A stretch of DNA of 43,824 nucleotides from Cyanobacteria bacterium HKST-UBA02 (GTDB lineage: Bacteria; Cyanobacteriota; Vampirovibrionia; Obscuribacterales; Obscuribacteraceae). Under the pieces are notes generated by a model that worked only from the letters and a program-made list of their open reading frames with translations, made no database searches and had not been told where the DNA came from. Position numbers and translations under genes: made by a program. Within the stretch, counting starts at the first letter, position 1. Each line of letters opens with the position of its first letter. The DNA lies in contig JAGQHH010000100.1 in assembly GCA_020431945.1 (NCBI GenBank), positions 1-43,824 of the forward strand. The letters are read 5' to 3'. Shown one piece after another: positions 6,206-32,763 of the stretch.

Positions 6206-8215
6206 ATGACAAACGTGGAAGACAACTGTCCGAGCTGTTTGAAGCCCAGGCAGGCTGGCCAGAGCGGCAGCCTCACCCAGTGGATCGCTGTCTGTCGCTG
6301 TCATGAGGAGGAAAACCTCACTCAACAGGCGGAGTCCCTCAATATCTGTTTCAAGTGCGGCAAAGCGATCGATCCCGGGCGCTCGGGCAGTTTTACCCAG
6401 TGGATCTTCCGCCCGGAGAGTTGCCGCTGCGATGTGCCCCTTCGTTTTGCCGCGGCCCTGGATTCGGCCGCCGAATCGAAAGAGGCCCCGGAGTTCGTCG
6501 AAGAAGAGGACCTGGAGTTCCTCGATCTTCCCTCCGACCAGTTTCCGGTGGAGCGTTACCGTCCCATGAGCAAGATCGGCTCAGGCGGGGCCGGCTCGGT
6601 CTATCTCTGCCGGGACAGTGTGCTCAATAAAGACGTGGCAGTGAAATCCCTGAGCTCGGTCACTCCGGCGCAGCTCATCACCTTCCAGCGCGAAGCCCGG
6701 GTAACGAGCCAGCTCAACCATCCGAATATCGTCCGGGTCTTCGACTTCGGAGTGGTGGACGGACGTATTCCTTATATGGTGATGGATTTTTTCGACGGCG
6801 TTAGCCTGAGCCGTTACCTGGAAGAAAATGGAGCCCTTCCCGAGGAGCTGGCGACGGACGTGATCATCCAGGTTTGCCAGGCTCTTTCTAAGGCTCACGG
6901 CATGGCCATCTTCCACCGCGATCTGAAGCCGGGCAATGTCCTGGTGCGAAAGCGGGAGGGGGGTCTAGAGGCGAGGCTCATTGATTTTGGGATTGCCCAT
7001 GTCGGGGTGGACAGGGCAGATCACACGCCTACCATGCTGGAAGGCAAGAAAGTGGTAGGTACTCCGGCTTATATGAGCCCGGACCAGATCGACACCGGCA
7101 ATTATGACGCCCGGAGCGAAATCTACTCCCTGGGCTGTGTTCTCTACGAGCTTGTCACAGGCGAGCAGGTCTTCACCGGCGCCAATGCCCTGGATGTCGT
7201 ATACAAGCATAAGAATGAAGAACCGCCGGTGGTGCGATCTTCTACTGGTCTGGATAAAGTTATCGACCGCTGCCTGGAGAAAGACCCGGAACTCCGTTAC
7301 CAGAGTGCCGAAGATCTGGCCGGGGCTCTGCGCGGTCTGGAGCGTGAGGCGCCCGGGCCTCAGGGTGTCCAGTTGGATATCAAGAAAGGTGGCGGGAAGA
7401 CCTCGCCTCTTGTTGCAGCGATGGTGATCGGTGGCGCTCTCGTTTCCTCGGTGGTGCTACTCTCGGTGCTCGGTATCGTCGATCTGCAGAAACCGCAAAA
7501 AACTGCGGTGAAGACCGGTAAGCCGGAGGATATGGATGCGAAAATGCTGCCTGAGCTCGTCGGGCAGAAGGCTCCGGTCAATGAAGACATTCCGGTGGAG
7601 AACAGAGCGCTCAATGACACCACGATTCTTTTTACCGGGCCCACCGCCATGGCCTCTTTTCGTAAAGAAGTGGCGGAGAATCCGGGCAAGCGCTATCTCA
7701 ATATCGCCCTGCAATATGCCAATCTCAGCGATGACGATATCGAGGAGCTGGTCAAGCTCAATCCCCAGGCTCTTCTTATAAGCGGCAATCCGAGACTCAC
7801 CGACCGGAGTTGCGAGCTCATCGCCAGGCTTCCTTTCATCGACCGTCTGGAGCTGGAGGAATCGCCGAAGATAACCGGCAAGGGTCTGGCCATGCTCGAC
7901 AAGTCACCCCGGCTGGCCTATATGTCCTTTCGCAATTGCAATCTGAGCGACACGGATCTTGCCAGTCTCAAACCCGATTCCCCGCTTTTCAAGCTGATTG
8001 TATCCGGCAACCCCCGGCTCACTCTTGCCGGCATCGAGAAGCTCTCGAGGCGCAAGCGCACTCTCGAGGTGGTGGCGGAAAATTGTGCCGGTATCGGTCG
8101 CCCGACCCCGGCACAGATCCAGAGGCTCTACTCCCTGGCCAATATCAGGCTCAATCTTGTGGACGAAGGAGACTTCGACCTCAAGAAAATCACCGAAGAT
8201 TTCATGCTCGAGTGA
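6206..8215 (+). CDS. Membrane Ser/Thr protein kinase with duplicated Cys motif and LRR-like C-terminus
   Basis: A 669-residue Hanks-type kinase. Residues 1-76 hold two copies of a Cys module: C8-x2-C11, G18xSGSxTQWI27, C30-x-C32, then C48-x2-C51, G58xSGSxTQWI67, C73-x-C75, which looks like a pair of small zinc-binding knuckles. The kinase domain (about 117-375) has the glycine loop GSGGAGSV, the VAVKSL lysine, FHRDLKPGNVLV, LIDFGIA and GTPAYMSPDQI, so it should be active. One transmembrane helix lies at about 402-426 (AAMVIGGALVSSVVLLSVLG). The C-terminal outer part contains LRR-like units (LSDDDIEELVKLNPQALLIS, LTDRSCELIARLPFIDRLEL, LSDTDLASL). It probably senses a partner outside the membrane and signals inward. 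The gene overlaps the convergent monooxygenase by 14 bases. Confidence 0.93.
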   Translation: MTNVEDNCPSCLKPRQAGQSGSLTQWIAVCRCHEEENLTQQAESLNICFKCGKAIDPGRSGSFTQWIFRPESCRCDVPLRFAAALDSAAESKEAPEFVEEEDLEFLDLPSDQFPVERYRPMSKIGSGGAGSVYLCRDSVLNKDVAVKSLSSVTPAQLITFQREARVTSQLNHPNIVRVFDFGVVDGRIPYMVMDFFDGVSLSRYLEENGALPEELATDVIIQVCQALSKAHGMAIFHRDLKPGNVLVRKREGGLEARLIDFGIAHVGVDRADHTPTMLEGKKVVGTPAYMSPDQIDTGNYDARSEIYSLGCVLYELVTGEQVFTGANALDVVYKHKNEEPPVVRSSTGLDKVIDRCLEKDPELRYQSAEDLAGALRGLEREAPGPQGVQLDIKKGGGKTSPLVAAMVIGGALVSSVVLLSVLGIVDLQKPQKTAVKTGKPEDMDAKMLPELVGQKAPVNEDIPVENRALNDTTILFTGPTAMASFRKEVAENPGKRYLNIALQYANLSDDDIEELVKLNPQALLISGNPRLTDRSCELIARLPFIDRLELEESPKITGKGLAMLDKSPRLAYMSFRNCNLSDTDLASLKPDSPLFKLIVSGNPRLTLAGIEKLSRRKRTLEVVAENCAGIGRPTPAQIQRLYSLANIRLNLVDEGDFDLKKITEDFMLE

Positions 8216-14940: not shown

Positions 14941-15975
14941 TTGGTAGGCTGGTTTAAAGGCTGGATAAACAGTGGCGTCGGGGTAGACCTCGGTACCGCC
15001 AACACGCTCATCTATGTGAAAAACCACGGTGTGGTGCTCAGGGAGCCGTCGGTGATCGCCATCGACGACAATACCAAAGAAGCGCTTGCCGCGGGTGAGG
15101 AAGCGCGAGCCATGATTGGGCGCACACCGATCGGCGTGCGGGCCATCCGGCCGCTTCGCGATGGTGTCATCGCCGAGCTGGACGACGCCAAGATCATGCT
15201 CGAGATGTTCATCAAGCGCATATCCGCGCACCAGACGGCGATCAAGCGACCCGAATTCGTCATCGCCGTGCCTTCCGGGATCACCAGCGTGGAGCGTATC
15301 GCTATCTCCAAGGTGGCGGAGAGCGCCAATCCCACCCGGACCTATATGCCCGAAGAGACGATGGCTGCTGCCATCGGCGCCGACCTTCCGGTCACCGAGC
15401 CCACCGGCTCCATGATCGTTGATATCGGTGGCGGTACCACCGAAGTCTCGGTGATCTCCCTTTCCGGTATAGTCGTCAGCGACTCCATCCGCATTGCCGG
15501 GGATGAGCTCAATGACGCCATCCGAAGCTATCTCAAGAAAGTCCACAGTCTCGATATCGGCGAGAAGACCGCCGAAGAATTGAAGTTCCGCCTGGGCTCG
15601 GCCTGGAAGACCGAAGAAAACGACAAATACAATGTCCGCGGTCTCAACCTCATCAACGGCCTGCCGCGCACCGTGACAGTCAGCCGTGGCGAAGTCCGGG
15701 AAGCTCTCCAGGAGCCGCTCTCGGCCATCGTCGATGCGGTCAAGCGCACTCTGGAGAAAACCCCTCCCGAGCTTGCTGCCGACATCTTCAATCGCGGCAT
15801 CGTCGTAGTCGGTGGTGGCGCTCTCCTGCAGGGGCTCGACGAGCTCATCTCCAGTGAGACCGAAGTGCCCGTATTCATCGCTGACGATCCGCTCTCGGCG
15901 GTGGCGGTGGGCACCGGCAAGATGCTTACCGATCCTACCTACAGTCGGGTTTTGCAGAAGTGCCAGGTTAAGTAG
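14941..15975 (+). CDS. mreB: Rod-shape actin homologue MreB
   Basis: The bacterial actin that directs lateral wall synthesis. Motifs are VGVDLGTANTLIYVK (phosphate 1), REPSVIAID, GRTPIGVRAIRPLRDGVIA, the second phosphate loop MIVDIGGGTTEVSVIS, AGDELNDAIRSYLKK, and GIVVVGGGALLQGLDELI (adenosine motif). It has 344 residues, the usual length. I choose TTG 14941 as the start: GGAG lies at 14929-14932, eight bases upstream, and translation then begins just before GWFKGWINSG, the amphipathic membrane-binding N-terminus. GTG 14932 is possible. It heads the mreBCD-mrdA operon. Confidence 0.96.
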   Translation: MVGWFKGWINSGVGVDLGTANTLIYVKNHGVVLREPSVIAIDDNTKEALAAGEEARAMIGRTPIGVRAIRPLRDGVIAELDDAKIMLEMFIKRISAHQTAIKRPEFVIAVPSGITSVERIAISKVAESANPTRTYMPEETMAAAIGADLPVTEPTGSMIVDIGGGTTEVSVISLSGIVVSDSIRIAGDELNDAIRSYLKKVHSLDIGEKTAEELKFRLGSAWKTEENDKYNVRGLNLINGLPRTVTVSRGEVREALQEPLSAIVDAVKRTLEKTPPELAADIFNRGIVVVGGGALLQGLDELISSETEVPVFIADDPLSAVAVGTGKMLTDPTYSRVLQKCQVK

Positions 15976-30164: not shown

Positions 30165-30449
30165 TCAGGAACCTGTTTGATCAATTGGTTGCAATAGTCT
30201 GAACCGGACTATCCATGACACGTCGCGCTGCGTGACTGACATAACCAGACCTTTGTGTTGCTGCCCATCAAGCCACATCACCCCGTATAGAGGTGTTCCA
30301 CCTTTCAAGCGCATATTCAATCGGTCGTACGATTCAGTGTATCCGCGAAAGGTTAGCGCGTACTCTCCAGGCACGATTTCCGTAGGTCGCTTCTCATTAT
30401 GTGTCGTGAGATGAAGAGTTTCGATAACTAGAGCTGGGACTGAGTACAT
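30165..30449 (-). CDS. 94-residue protein of unknown family, third gene of the low-G+C cassette
   Basis: A small basic protein, predicted mainly as beta strands, with no signal peptide or membrane helix. Recognisable features are PGEYALTFRGYTESYDRLNM, then GTPLYGVMWLDGQQHKGLVM and DVSWIVRFRLLQP. I do not recognise a family. An AGGAG ribosome site lies seven bases before the ATG, which supports it as a real gene. It follows the kinase gene on the same strand after 120 bases and converges on the PAS kinase gene, 64 bases away. Its A+T-rich composition matches the two upstream genes. It could be an effector, a substrate or a modulator of the kinase; that is inference. Confidence 0.65.
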   Translation of the reverse strand: MYSVPALVIETLHLTTHNEKRPTEIVPGEYALTFRGYTESYDRLNMRLKGGTPLYGVMWLDGQQHKGLVMSVTQRDVSWIVRFRLLQPIDQTGS

Positions 30450-30569
30450 TTGCTTCTCCTAGAAACTGAGAACGATATCTACTTCGTTTGTTCTCTCATC
30501 AAGATTCATTCCAGTGTAGTGCGCCAAGGTCGCCTTCCTTGTTTTGGCAAAACAGCGTGCACTCAGGGA

Positions 30570-31625
30570 TCAGCTTGCATCGGCAACGACCCACTGCATG
30601 AACTTACTTATCAACTTGTCCGCTTGTTTCTTTGTTAGTTCTTGCCCACAAAACTTGAGAATTCTTGTCTTTCGATCTGCTGAACAGCGCCGAGACTCAA
30701 CCGAGTATCGCCCAGAGCGTTCAATCATTTCAAATTCGTACTTGAATTTCTCACCAACTCCAATATAGTTTCCCGTCGAATCTTGCGTCCAGTAACCTCG
30801 ATACTTCAGATGCTCAAGAGCCCTTAGCATTTCGAGCGCCGACTGATATCTGCTGGCCGAATCGACATTCATTGCTTTGTTTACGATTCGTCTGAGAGAC
30901 AAAGGAACCCAAGGGCGATAATCATCCTGCTTGGGTACAAGCCCTGCGATTTTTCTCTTTTCAAATTCATCTTTGCCCAATGAAAAAAAATCGGAAACCA
31001 CGCTTCCCAGTCCATTGAGCAACCTAAATGCTGTAACTCCTACCTGGTATATATCTGTTTGAATTGTTATCGTGTTCGTGACGCACGTTTCAGGAGCACA
31101 ATGAATTAAGTACATATCCTTCGCCACTGCAGACGTCCCCGATTGCACCATTGCAGCGATGCCATAATCTGATAGTACTGGCTGACCCTTCAATCCGATA
31201 AGAATATTTGTGGGCTTCACATCGTTGTGAAATATTCCAGCCTGGTGCAAATATTCTAGACCGCGCAGGACACCTACCAGCGTTGCTAGGACATCTGGAA
31301 TAGTGAGGAAATTTCCAACGGTCGCTTTGTTTTGTACGCTTCCTTCCGGCAAATATTGTTGAGATATGAGCGTTACCATCTTCCCCTCGAAGTTCGCGAT
31401 ATCCGCGCCATAGATGGGTATCAAGTTATCGTGCGTCAGTTTATTCCCAATGACGGCTTCTTCAAGCGTCGACTTGACACAAGCAAGCGCAGTGGGAAGA
31501 ATTTTTACGGCGACTTCCTTTTCGATAGCACTATCCGTGCATTTCCAAACTTGTCCGAATTCACCCTCACCAATCTGCAGGGCCAATGAGTATTTATATA
31601 TCTGATCGCCGGAGCTATACTTCAT
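30570..31625 (-). CDS. Soluble Ser/Thr protein kinase with novel C-terminal extension, second gene of the low-G+C cassette
   Basis: A 351-residue Hanks-type kinase: glycine loop GEGEFGQV (19-26), catalytic lysine in VAVKIL (K41), catalytic loop FHNDVKPTNIL (H133-N134-D135, N140), SDYG (153-155) as the metal loop, and CAPETC (APE 177-179). HND and DYG replace the usual HRD and DFG; both Asp residues are kept, so it should be active, and the missing HRD arginine suggests no activation-loop phosphorylation is needed. About 75 residues after the kinase domain (YRGYWTQDSTGNYIGVGEKF onward) form an extra domain I do not recognise. There is no membrane helix. The start overlaps the upstream gene by 11 bases, so the two are translationally coupled. 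Composition is about 37-45% G+C, unlike the flanks. Confidence 0.92.
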   Translation of the reverse strand: MKYSSGDQIYKYSLALQIGEGEFGQVWKCTDSAIEKEVAVKILPTALACVKSTLEEAVIGNKLTHDNLIPIYGADIANFEGKMVTLISQQYLPEGSVQNKATVGNFLTIPDVLATLVGVLRGLEYLHQAGIFHNDVKPTNILIGLKGQPVLSDYGIAAMVQSGTSAVAKDMYLIHCAPETCVTNTITIQTDIYQVGVTAFRLLNGLGSVVSDFFSLGKDEFEKRKIAGLVPKQDDYRPWVPLSLRRIVNKAMNVDSASRYQSALEMLRALEHLKYRGYWTQDSTGNYIGVGEKFKYEFEMIERSGRYSVESRRCSADRKTRILKFCGQELTKKQADKLISKFMQWVVADAS

Positions 31626-32094
31626 TCTTGTTGAGCAAATACGCAGCAGCCAGAATGGCGTCCGCCATCTGTTGATTCCAATACTTTGTTGTCGTCCCTA
31701 CTAGCGCTTCAGCTCTAAGAAGGGCTTCGGTGCTGTTTGTTTTTAACTTACTGTACAAATATGCTCCAAGTTCAATATTGCGTTCCGCAGCCACTAGGAA
31801 TGCAATTGCATCGGCATAACAAGTTGTTCTCTTGTCTACAGAATCGCTGCTTCTGATCCCATATTCTGGTAACTTCACACCAATCACGCTAATTGGTCCC
31901 ATGTGATCGCAGATTCTGCTTAGTTCTATGTGTAGCCACGCGGCCCGCTGATCCTGCTGTTCCAACATAGCGGCTGGAAATGACAATTTATTTTCCGTTT
32001 CTGCATTCACAAGTGTCAAGCTGCCTTCATTATCAATGTCAACTATTGCATACCGCACTTGTTGCGGGGCCGACCGAATTCCTAAAGCACGCAT
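31615..32094 (-). CDS. RNase H/RuvC-fold-like protein, first gene of the low-G+C cassette
   Basis: A 159-residue soluble protein. MRALGIRSAPQQVRYAIVD resembles the first beta hairpin of RuvC-like and DUF3010-type RNase H folds; ISVIGVKLPEYG looks like the central strand; RTTCYADAIAFLVAAER follows; and WNQQMADAILAAAYLL (D145) resembles the last catalytic helix. The first-strand acid of true nucleases is not present (GIRS where GIDPG is usual), so activity is doubtful. The start is ATG 32094 because AAAGGAGGC lies a few bases upstream; a start at 32151 would add 19 residues. The stop TAG lies inside the kinase start region. The fold assignment is my reading of pattern, not a search result. Confidence 0.75.
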   Translation of the reverse strand: MRALGIRSAPQQVRYAIVDIDNEGSLTLVNAETENKLSFPAAMLEQQDQRAAWLHIELSRICDHMGPISVIGVKLPEYGIRSSDSVDKRTTCYADAIAFLVAAERNIELGAYLYSKLKTNSTEALLRAEALVGTTTKYWNQQMADAILAAAYLLNKNEV

Positions 32095-32379
32095 AAGCCT
32101 CCTTTCTGAACGATTCAAAGATTGAGTTTTGCCGGATTGCAGGAGGTTCAATCGAGATTAATCAGAGCAATCAACAGAGTATAGAGGATTTTTATAACAC
32201 TGCGGTGTTCCATGCGAAAATCACCCGAATGGGGGCGTTTGTCGACGAAATATATCACCAACGTTGCGTGCACTTTCTCTACTGTCGATTTGCCATCGCT
32301 GCTGGCCGGCTTGAGTTGTTCCTAGGTTCGCGAAGAGTCGGACCTGTTTTCGCTGAGAGAAACATCACGACAAAATCCC

Positions 32380-32408
32380 TTGACAAGGCGCGGGCCCTGT
32401 TGTAACTT
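32380..32408 (+). promoter_or_regulatory. Sigma-70 promoter of the ABC transporter unit
   Basis: A perfect -35 TTGACA (32380-32385) is followed after 17 bases by TAACTT (32403-32408), which is preceded directly by TG. This would give a leader of about 350 bases before the transporter ATG. Confidence 0.55.
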
Positions 32409-32470
32409 GGCTGAATCCCAGGACCGCGATTACAGAGTCCCCTCGATTGAGTTCGAGCCGCAACTTTCAA

Positions 32471-32575
32471 GCAGGAGACGACTATGACCAGGAAAGCAAT
32501 TCATTAAAGGGCAGGCGTTGATGCCATAGTCATCCACCGAGGTGCAGATTCGCACTCGGTCGAATTGGTCATAGT
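32471..32575 (+). promoter_or_regulatory. Structured leader with a seven-residue leader peptide
   Basis: GCAGGAG precedes ATG at 32484, opening a frame that ends at TAA 32505-32507 (MTRKAIH). ACTATGACC (32481-32489), which covers this start codon, can pair with GGTCATAGT (32567-32575); alternatively GACTATG (32480-32486) can pair with CATAGTC (32525-32531). The two pairings exclude each other. Between them is a hairpin, ACCGA-g-GTGC/GCAC-TCGGT (32536-32560). After the TAA the same frame stays open for about 48 codons, to the TAG at 32652, so a broken small gene is an alternative reading. No T-tract terminator is apparent. Confidence 0.4.
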
Positions 32576-32763
32576 TGCAGGTTCTCTCTGCACAAACAAA
32601 CGCAGCAACTTACGCGAACGCAGCCCTCCATCTGTTTGTGCTCGTAACTAGCTCGGCAAGTCTCGAGCTCGGTTCGGCACTCGCAATGCCGCTGAAGGCT
32701 TTCATTGCGTTTACTGTTTGTCGAAACTGAGCCGCAGGGCTTGTCTTTACGGAGACATCCCGG

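Follow-up and report, generated by a model that had tools for sequence, protein, structure and literature searches.

What does a small block of unusual composition do in an otherwise ordinary cyanobacterial chromosome? The window analyzed here, a stretch of 43,824 nucleotides from Cyanobacteria bacterium HKST-UBA02 (contig JAGQHH010000100.1), holds such a block at positions 30165-32094. An earlier sequence-only reading had proposed that its three genes form a transferred cassette with a role in host conflict or stress response, built around a pseudo-nuclease coupled to a soluble kinase. The first two genes are called A and K below.

Layout and composition of the cassette

All three genes lie on the minus strand. 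Gene A (31615-32094) encodes a RuvC-fold protein of 159 amino acids from its ATG, or 178 in the list of open reading frames, where it is counted from an upstream TTG, and is preceded by a ribosome binding site, AAAGGAGG, at 32098-32105. Gene K (30570-31625), assigned from the same list and a domain match, encodes a PknB-like Ser/Thr kinase of 351 amino acids, and an orphan gene (30165-30449) encodes a protein of 94 amino acids behind an AGGAG ribosome binding site at 30456-30460. A and K overlap by 11 bases (31615-31625); in relatives the corresponding spacing ranges from -4 to +47. The initial description of strand, overlap, and ribosome sites at the first and third genes was thus borne out by the frame list and the sequence. 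No ribosome site was visible ahead of K in the sequence, which fits translational coupling of K to A, and the 11-base overlap probably reflects such coupling.

The cassette is flanked on one side by a convergent gene reading as a histidine kinase and on the other by a divergent ABC transporter gene, from which A is separated by a 669-base region (32095-32763) that holds no convincing gene or insertion repeat and gave no RNA family or tRNA match. Around the cassette as a whole, neither an integrase nor a tRNA was seen, and no flanking repeat was convincing; scans for Rfam families, tRNAs and terminators were uninformative, and such repeats as turned up were short and imperfect or chance-like. 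By reading, the rest of the window is ordinary chromosome (mre genes, a penicillin-binding protein, a sigma factor and a Clp ATPase). No phage gene was recognized near the cassette and no known defense system was found there; ten other window genes gave broad PADLOC matches only (helix-turn-helix, sigma factor, TPR, ABC and kinase). Reference proteins of six types from a type I restriction operon (two S, M, GIY, R and YgjP) had no match in the 43.8 kb at an E value of 1e-4.

Recomputation of the composition figures that had singled out the block, and of the 669-base gap, gave the same values: G+C is 22 of 60 at 31021-31080 versus 35 of 60 at 15181-15240. Just 8 of the 730 sixty-base bins in the window have a G+C count of 22 or fewer, and 4 of them lie inside the cassette. 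Over its 1930 bases the cassette has a G+C fraction of 0.461, compared with a window mean of 0.558 (S.D. 0.028), and the window minimum (0.454, start 30294) overlaps it, making the cassette the lowest-G+C block of the window. The difference is also clear at third codon positions, where GC3 is 0.431 for A, 0.466 for K and 0.484 for the 94-residue gene, against a mean of 0.690 (S.D. 0.044, minimum 0.570) for the 26 other window genes; a second Ser/Thr kinase gene (6206-8215) has a GC3 of 0.691, in line with the earlier remark that the other kinases of the window match the local composition. These values uphold the view of a transferred block, and by composition the A–K copy in the window is probably a lone pair inside a small foreign insert.

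The 94-residue frame outscored its five alternative frames with both codon tables used and is therefore probably coding. A protein search with it returned only itself, no plasmid record matched, and no family was found in Pfam, NCBIfam, PADLOC 2.0.0 or PHROGs, in agreement with the first impression that it belongs to no known family. We therefore rejected it as a conserved third component: it shares the low G+C content of A and K, and having no relatives it was left out of the module. What survives of the proposed three-gene unit is A and K, which are conserved together.

Gene A has a RuvC fold without the first catalytic aspartate

The fold of gene A is that of RuvC (RNase H-type), at 11-20 percent identity to the RuvC sequences compared. 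We take the catalytic carboxylates of Escherichia coli RuvC to be D7, E66, D138 and D141. This complete set was not found in gene A, in which Arg7 aligns with the first catalytic aspartate, D7. A search with the single protein gave 3 matches, one of them the window's own, and a profile search gave 332, of which 120 were listed; Arg occupies the first position in all 120 relatives listed. The position of E66 is ambiguous (Lys74 or Glu77), and that of D138 is not conserved by reading. Asp145, in an ADA motif, is present in 120 of 120 among the matches listed and is probably the equivalent of RuvC D141. Arg7, Glu77 and Asp145 are kept across distant copies. Gene A is thus a probable pseudo-resolvase, and its role may be that of a sensor or regulator.

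For assignment to known families, gene A was below every cut-off in Pfam, NCBIfam, PADLOC 2.0.0 and PHROGs. The RuvC family PF02075 did not match window A and matched 1 of 49 relatives, at an E value of 0.023. DUF3010, to which the protein had been likened, was rejected, with no Pfam family matched at all; the RNase H-type part of that label stands, as RuvC. A6 gave a single chance-like match to PDB sequences (E 0.85), no match to phage records was obtained with A from the window or from phage contig L028, and a viral scan with an alignment of the window type returned nothing.

The two near relatives P0002 and P0003 are 88 and 71 percent identical to window A. With a pI of 5.4, window A is acidic, compared with a family median of 8.6, values of 8.8-10.0 for six RuvC proteins, and 8.5 (basic) and 7.8 for P0002 and P0003, respectively. 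This speaks against DNA binding by the window copy and leaves a protein trigger possible.

Gene K encodes a kinase with a complete active site

The active site of the K protein is complete for a protein kinase and belongs to the non-RD type, with HND in the catalytic loop, and its catalytic residues are retained in distant copies. The kinase fold covers residues 6-277, and an extra C-terminal domain follows at about 278-349. Both A and K frames are intact in the window. The pseudo-nuclease coupled to a soluble kinase that had been suspected is seen here as a RuvC fold with a lost catalytic residue and a soluble kinase coupled to it.

The best PHROG of window K is 2361 (E 1.2e-44, 153.9 bits). 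In PADLOC, K and the relatives scanned best matched PD-T4-6 and MADS mad6 (130 bits for K). The same models give 255 bits to the ordinary window kinase at 6206-8215; these matches therefore carry no weight and were rejected as evidence. Against the NCBIfam mad6 equivalog, K scored 110.4 bits, below the cut-off of 460, and all that it has in common with the MADS and PD-T4-6 kinases is the kinase domain.

A–K pairs across genomes

We define the A–K family by a RuvC-fold protein of 150-160 residues with an N-terminal LG[FILV]R, directly followed by an HND-loop kinase with the C-terminal extra domain; the window pair shows all of these features. Together with the window, 24 loci from one pattern-limited scan of species genomes, 4 from viral contigs and 2 from plasmids gave 31 loci. 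K directly follows A in 30 of these 31 (window and L001-L030), the exception being L012, where by eye K begins but meets a stop after 24 codons, shortly before the end of the contig. In L011, K contains one stop. The family is rare. Three samples, of 396, 385 and 296 genomes, each had a full-strength match in no genome but the one on which the sample was centered, and the latter two each gave one weak match, to RuvC itself (L035) and to a protein not relatable to the family (L033). Relatives also occur on plasmids and phage contigs.

HsdM and/or HsdR genes lie beside the pair in 24 of the 31 loci, including two (L029 and L030) from the viral collection. The order in these restriction loci is S, M, (GIY), S, A, K, R and a YgjP protease; in L025, on a 5.5-kb contig, only R was seen. 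Four-base overlaps join hsdS to A in 20 of 22 measurable loci and K to hsdR in 16 of 23. Some loci have an extra gene between K and R: L003 and, judged by eye, L004 have one for DUF4917 (the PADLOC candidate PDC-S21), L021 one for DUF3800, and L025 one for a Schlafen/ATPase protein. The remaining seven loci (window, L006, L008, L012, L022, L027 (8.2 kb) and L028) showed no hsd gene in the stretches examined. Phage contigs L027, L028 and, beyond the 31, L054 all carry the pair, and the hsd reference proteins were unmatched in their stretches examined. The earlier reading had suggested checking whether the gene order recurs in unrelated genomes and near defense genes; for A and K it does, whereas for the 94-residue gene no relative was found.

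The YgjP-type metalloprotease gene (L001:14747-15472 and like loci) is present in 23 of the 24 restriction loci. L025 ends too early to include it, and L015 carries it at the other end.

On the trees, window K groups with an Algoriphagus copy (100/100). The absence of restriction genes requires 4 changes on the A tree and 5 on the K tree, and is not clearly clustered on the latter, where 166-169 of 500 shuffles were as low. Distances between loci correlate at r = 0.953 for A with K (30 loci) and at r = 0.991 for HsdM with HsdR (21 loci), whereas A or K against HsdM or HsdR gave 0.73-0.76 (21-22 loci); none of these correlations was reached by any of 999 shuffles. Distances that are tighter within A–K and within M–R than between them form the pattern of two units that have been partly exchanged.

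The slot between hsdS and hsdR

With HsdR of the Novosphingobium operon as query, 717 plasmid records matched, of which 40 were listed and the best 15 (H7-H21) were followed up. H7 is the Novosphingobium operon itself, H18 and H19 are A–K operons, and H20 lacks annotation; the other 11, with HsdR proteins 42-80 percent identical to the query, were fetched as sister operons. By annotation, all 11 of these, drawn from the best 15 of 717, carry a different gene between hsdS and hsdR: TIGR04141 in three, Shedu with HAD in two, and one each with DUF6119, Shedu with DUF3800, DUF3800, DUF3800 with a hypothetical protein, HAD, and an Abi family protein. Shedu, found in three of the 11, is an established defense gene. 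The slot of this one type I family (L042-L052) thus holds five kinds of gene (Shedu, Abi, TIGR04141/DUF6119, DUF3800 and HAD). A YgjP gene directly follows hsdR in 11 of 11.

Precedents for such cargo exist. An E. coli island active against phage has DarTG2 at its hsdS–hsdR junction, which is termed a potential recombination hotspot (PMC12255303), and PrrC, which resides in a type IC locus, is the classic example of a gene embedded in this way (PMC12707154). Since A–K shares its slot with Shedu and Abi and has DarTG2 and PrrC as precedents, it looks like defense-slot cargo and not like part of the enzyme; since the sister enzymes carry unrelated slot genes, the enzyme does not need it.

Distant relatives in phages

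When phage records were searched with K (36 records), the SPbeta-type phages L6 and L7 aligned to 96 percent of the kinase (E 5e-28). A kinase related to K, compared with plasmids (30 records), matched a Providencia prophage-like region. From these searches, the neighborhoods of SPbetaL7 and Providencia were examined. In both, a gene for a protein of 152-167 residues overlaps the kinase start by 4 bases, and its product belongs to PHROG 3875, "RuvC-like Holliday junction resolvase." A protein of this type was found in 12 E. coli phage records (70.5 percent identity), 4 of which carry the annotation of a 933W-like immunity region, and in the phi24B record the RuvC-like gene overlaps stk by 7 bases. 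In phage 933W itself, the kinase (ST933Wp22) and the RuvC-like protein (p23) are listed side by side in a table of PMC10789677. On a Mesorhizobium plasmid (L060:3218-6483), genes for DUF4433, a macro-domain protein, a RuvC-like protein and a kinase stand in a row, likely a defense cluster. An opposite-strand gene for an ATP-binding protein follows this row. The DUF4433 protein is DarT-like.

All four distant RuvC-like proteins (SPbetaL7, Providencia, phi24B and Mesorhizobium) have an N-terminal LGxR or IGxR. Profile comparison of K with its phage relatives aligned 321 columns (E 3.2e-50); for gene A and the phage RuvC-like proteins, hhalign gave a weak match (probability 75 over 69 columns, with E 2.5e-5 for a single comparison), and neither window A nor L028 A was assigned to PHROG 3875 or any other PHROG. 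In the phi24B protein (L059:1443-1904, PHROG 3875), which goes by the resolvase name in related phage records, LGVR stands at the place of RuvC's first catalytic aspartate, so that name is probably wrong.

Relation to known systems

The closest known system is the 933W-type pair, with which the window shares a RuvC-like gene followed by and overlapping a kinase gene, LGxR at the first catalytic site, and a kinase in PHROG 2361. It differs in that window A falls outside PHROG 3875, with a weak sequence link, that K has HND where Stk-type kinases have HFD in the catalytic loop, and that the window has no recognized phage genes. Relatives of A–K resemble the accessories embedded in type I operons (PrrC, DarTG2 and the PADLOC PDC candidates), lying between hsdS and hsdR as DarTG2 does (PMC12255303). 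The proteins are different, however, no PADLOC model matches A, and the window copy lies outside any restriction operon, unlike the copies in 24 of the 31 family loci. From RuvC resolvase, whose fold it shares, gene A is set apart by the arginine, the low identity and the missing PF02075 match. The earlier statement that no named system has this gene set holds for gene A in the four libraries; it needs amending in that a distant relative, the RuvC-like/Stk pair of 933W-like phages, is partly known.

We found no description of a RuvC-like gene and kinase in type I restriction operons in the literature searched; a 2024 embedding survey by Payne and colleagues, cited in PMC12255303 and PMC13092281, may list the pair. 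Kinase-based abortive infection and cargo within restriction operons are of an already known kind. Within that literature, and with possible overlap with the 2024 preprint, what appears undescribed is that such a kinase is paired with a nuclease-dead RuvC, that the pair occurs in restriction slots, in lone islands and in phages, and that it is connected to the 933W pair.

A candidate anti-phage module and its rivals

The genomic context makes a conflict role of the cassette likelier. We favor, as reasonably probable, the explanation that A–K is a horizontally transferred pair of genes that acts against phage by abortive infection, A being the sensor or restraint and K the effector. Its computed basis is the fold of A, the lost catalytic residue, the complete kinase site, the pairing, the slot exchange and the foreign composition; sensing by A, the trigger, the target of K and protection itself we infer. 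Gene A, keeping the RuvC scaffold and not the nuclease center, would recognize either the branched DNA of phage replication or a phage protein, for example a resolvase, and would hold or trigger K. Once triggered, K might phosphorylate host or phage proteins and so stop the infection, on the model of the Stk kinase of phage 933W, which reportedly causes abortive infection upon infection by phage HK97. Inside a restriction operon, the pair could act as a second layer once restriction fails. More tentatively, and with somewhat less than even confidence, A–K and the phage RuvC-like/Stk pairs may be one ancient, undescribed immune family, in which the scaffold of a Holliday-junction resolvase, its nuclease center lost as the invariant LGxR shows, came to switch on a non-RD kinase, either as a sensor of branched phage DNA or by serving phage resolvases as a decoy, the whole moving between prophages, stand-alone islands and the exchangeable type I slot.

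Much of the same evidence can be read otherwise. The near-strict pairing (30 of 31 loci), with A first and the genes overlapping or close, the spotty distribution over the three genome samples and the copies on plasmids and phage contigs would also suit a toxin–antitoxin system, with K a growth-stopping kinase, A its cognate antitoxin or chaperone, and persistence by addiction making phage sensing unnecessary. To our knowledge a RuvC fold is unusual among antitoxins, and the preference for a slot shared with Shedu, Abi and candidate defense genes is better explained by defense, even if toxin–antitoxin pairs such as DarTG2 also use the junction (PMC12255303); we regard this reading as unlikely. 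A role in restriction control, in which A–K tunes the type I enzyme, for example through HsdR phosphorylation that delays restriction after entry or DNA damage, likewise fits much of the evidence used for a defense module, including the 4-base overlaps with hsdS and hsdR, and for EcoKI, control by phosphorylating the restriction subunit has been named as a possibility (PMC12707154). The window copy would then be a remnant or act on a restriction system elsewhere. This is made quite improbable by the 7 of 31 loci without an hsd gene in the stretch examined, the unrelated slot genes of sister enzymes, the looser tracking of HsdM and HsdR by A and K than of each other, and the distant versions in phage immunity regions. 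That the pair serves ordinary signaling or is cargo in decay, its kinase acquired by transfer along with a degenerate relative of RuvC and having a housekeeping function or none in this host, would agree with the orphan 94-residue gene, the broken kinases of L011 and L012, and the lack of a known defense neighbor seen in the window. The intact frames, the conservation of the kinase catalytic residues and of Arg7, Glu77 and Asp145 in distant copies, and the high identity of A in P0002 and P0003 make it the least credible, and very improbable.

If the anti-phage reading is true, phage proteins named "RuvC-like Holliday junction resolvase" and "hypothetical proteins" of restriction operons would be nuclease-dead partners of an immune kinase, and the Stk kinase of 933W-like phages would gain a candidate regulatory partner. 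Sensing of DNA structure would be added as an idea to kinase-based phage defense, and the hsdS–hsdR junction of one type I family would be a swap slot in which unrelated known and candidate defense genes replace one another.

Two of the loci without hsd genes have neighborhoods of their own. In L008 (7652-12009), the pair lies downstream of a guaA-like gene; by eye, a fragment of a tyrosine recombinase and a DUF4917-like gene cut short are next to it, and the region looks like a decayed island. In L022 (5552-9622, Rhodanobacter), it adjoins a gene for a 1356-residue HTH/Mrr_cat/STAND-NTPase protein, a possible defense neighbor.
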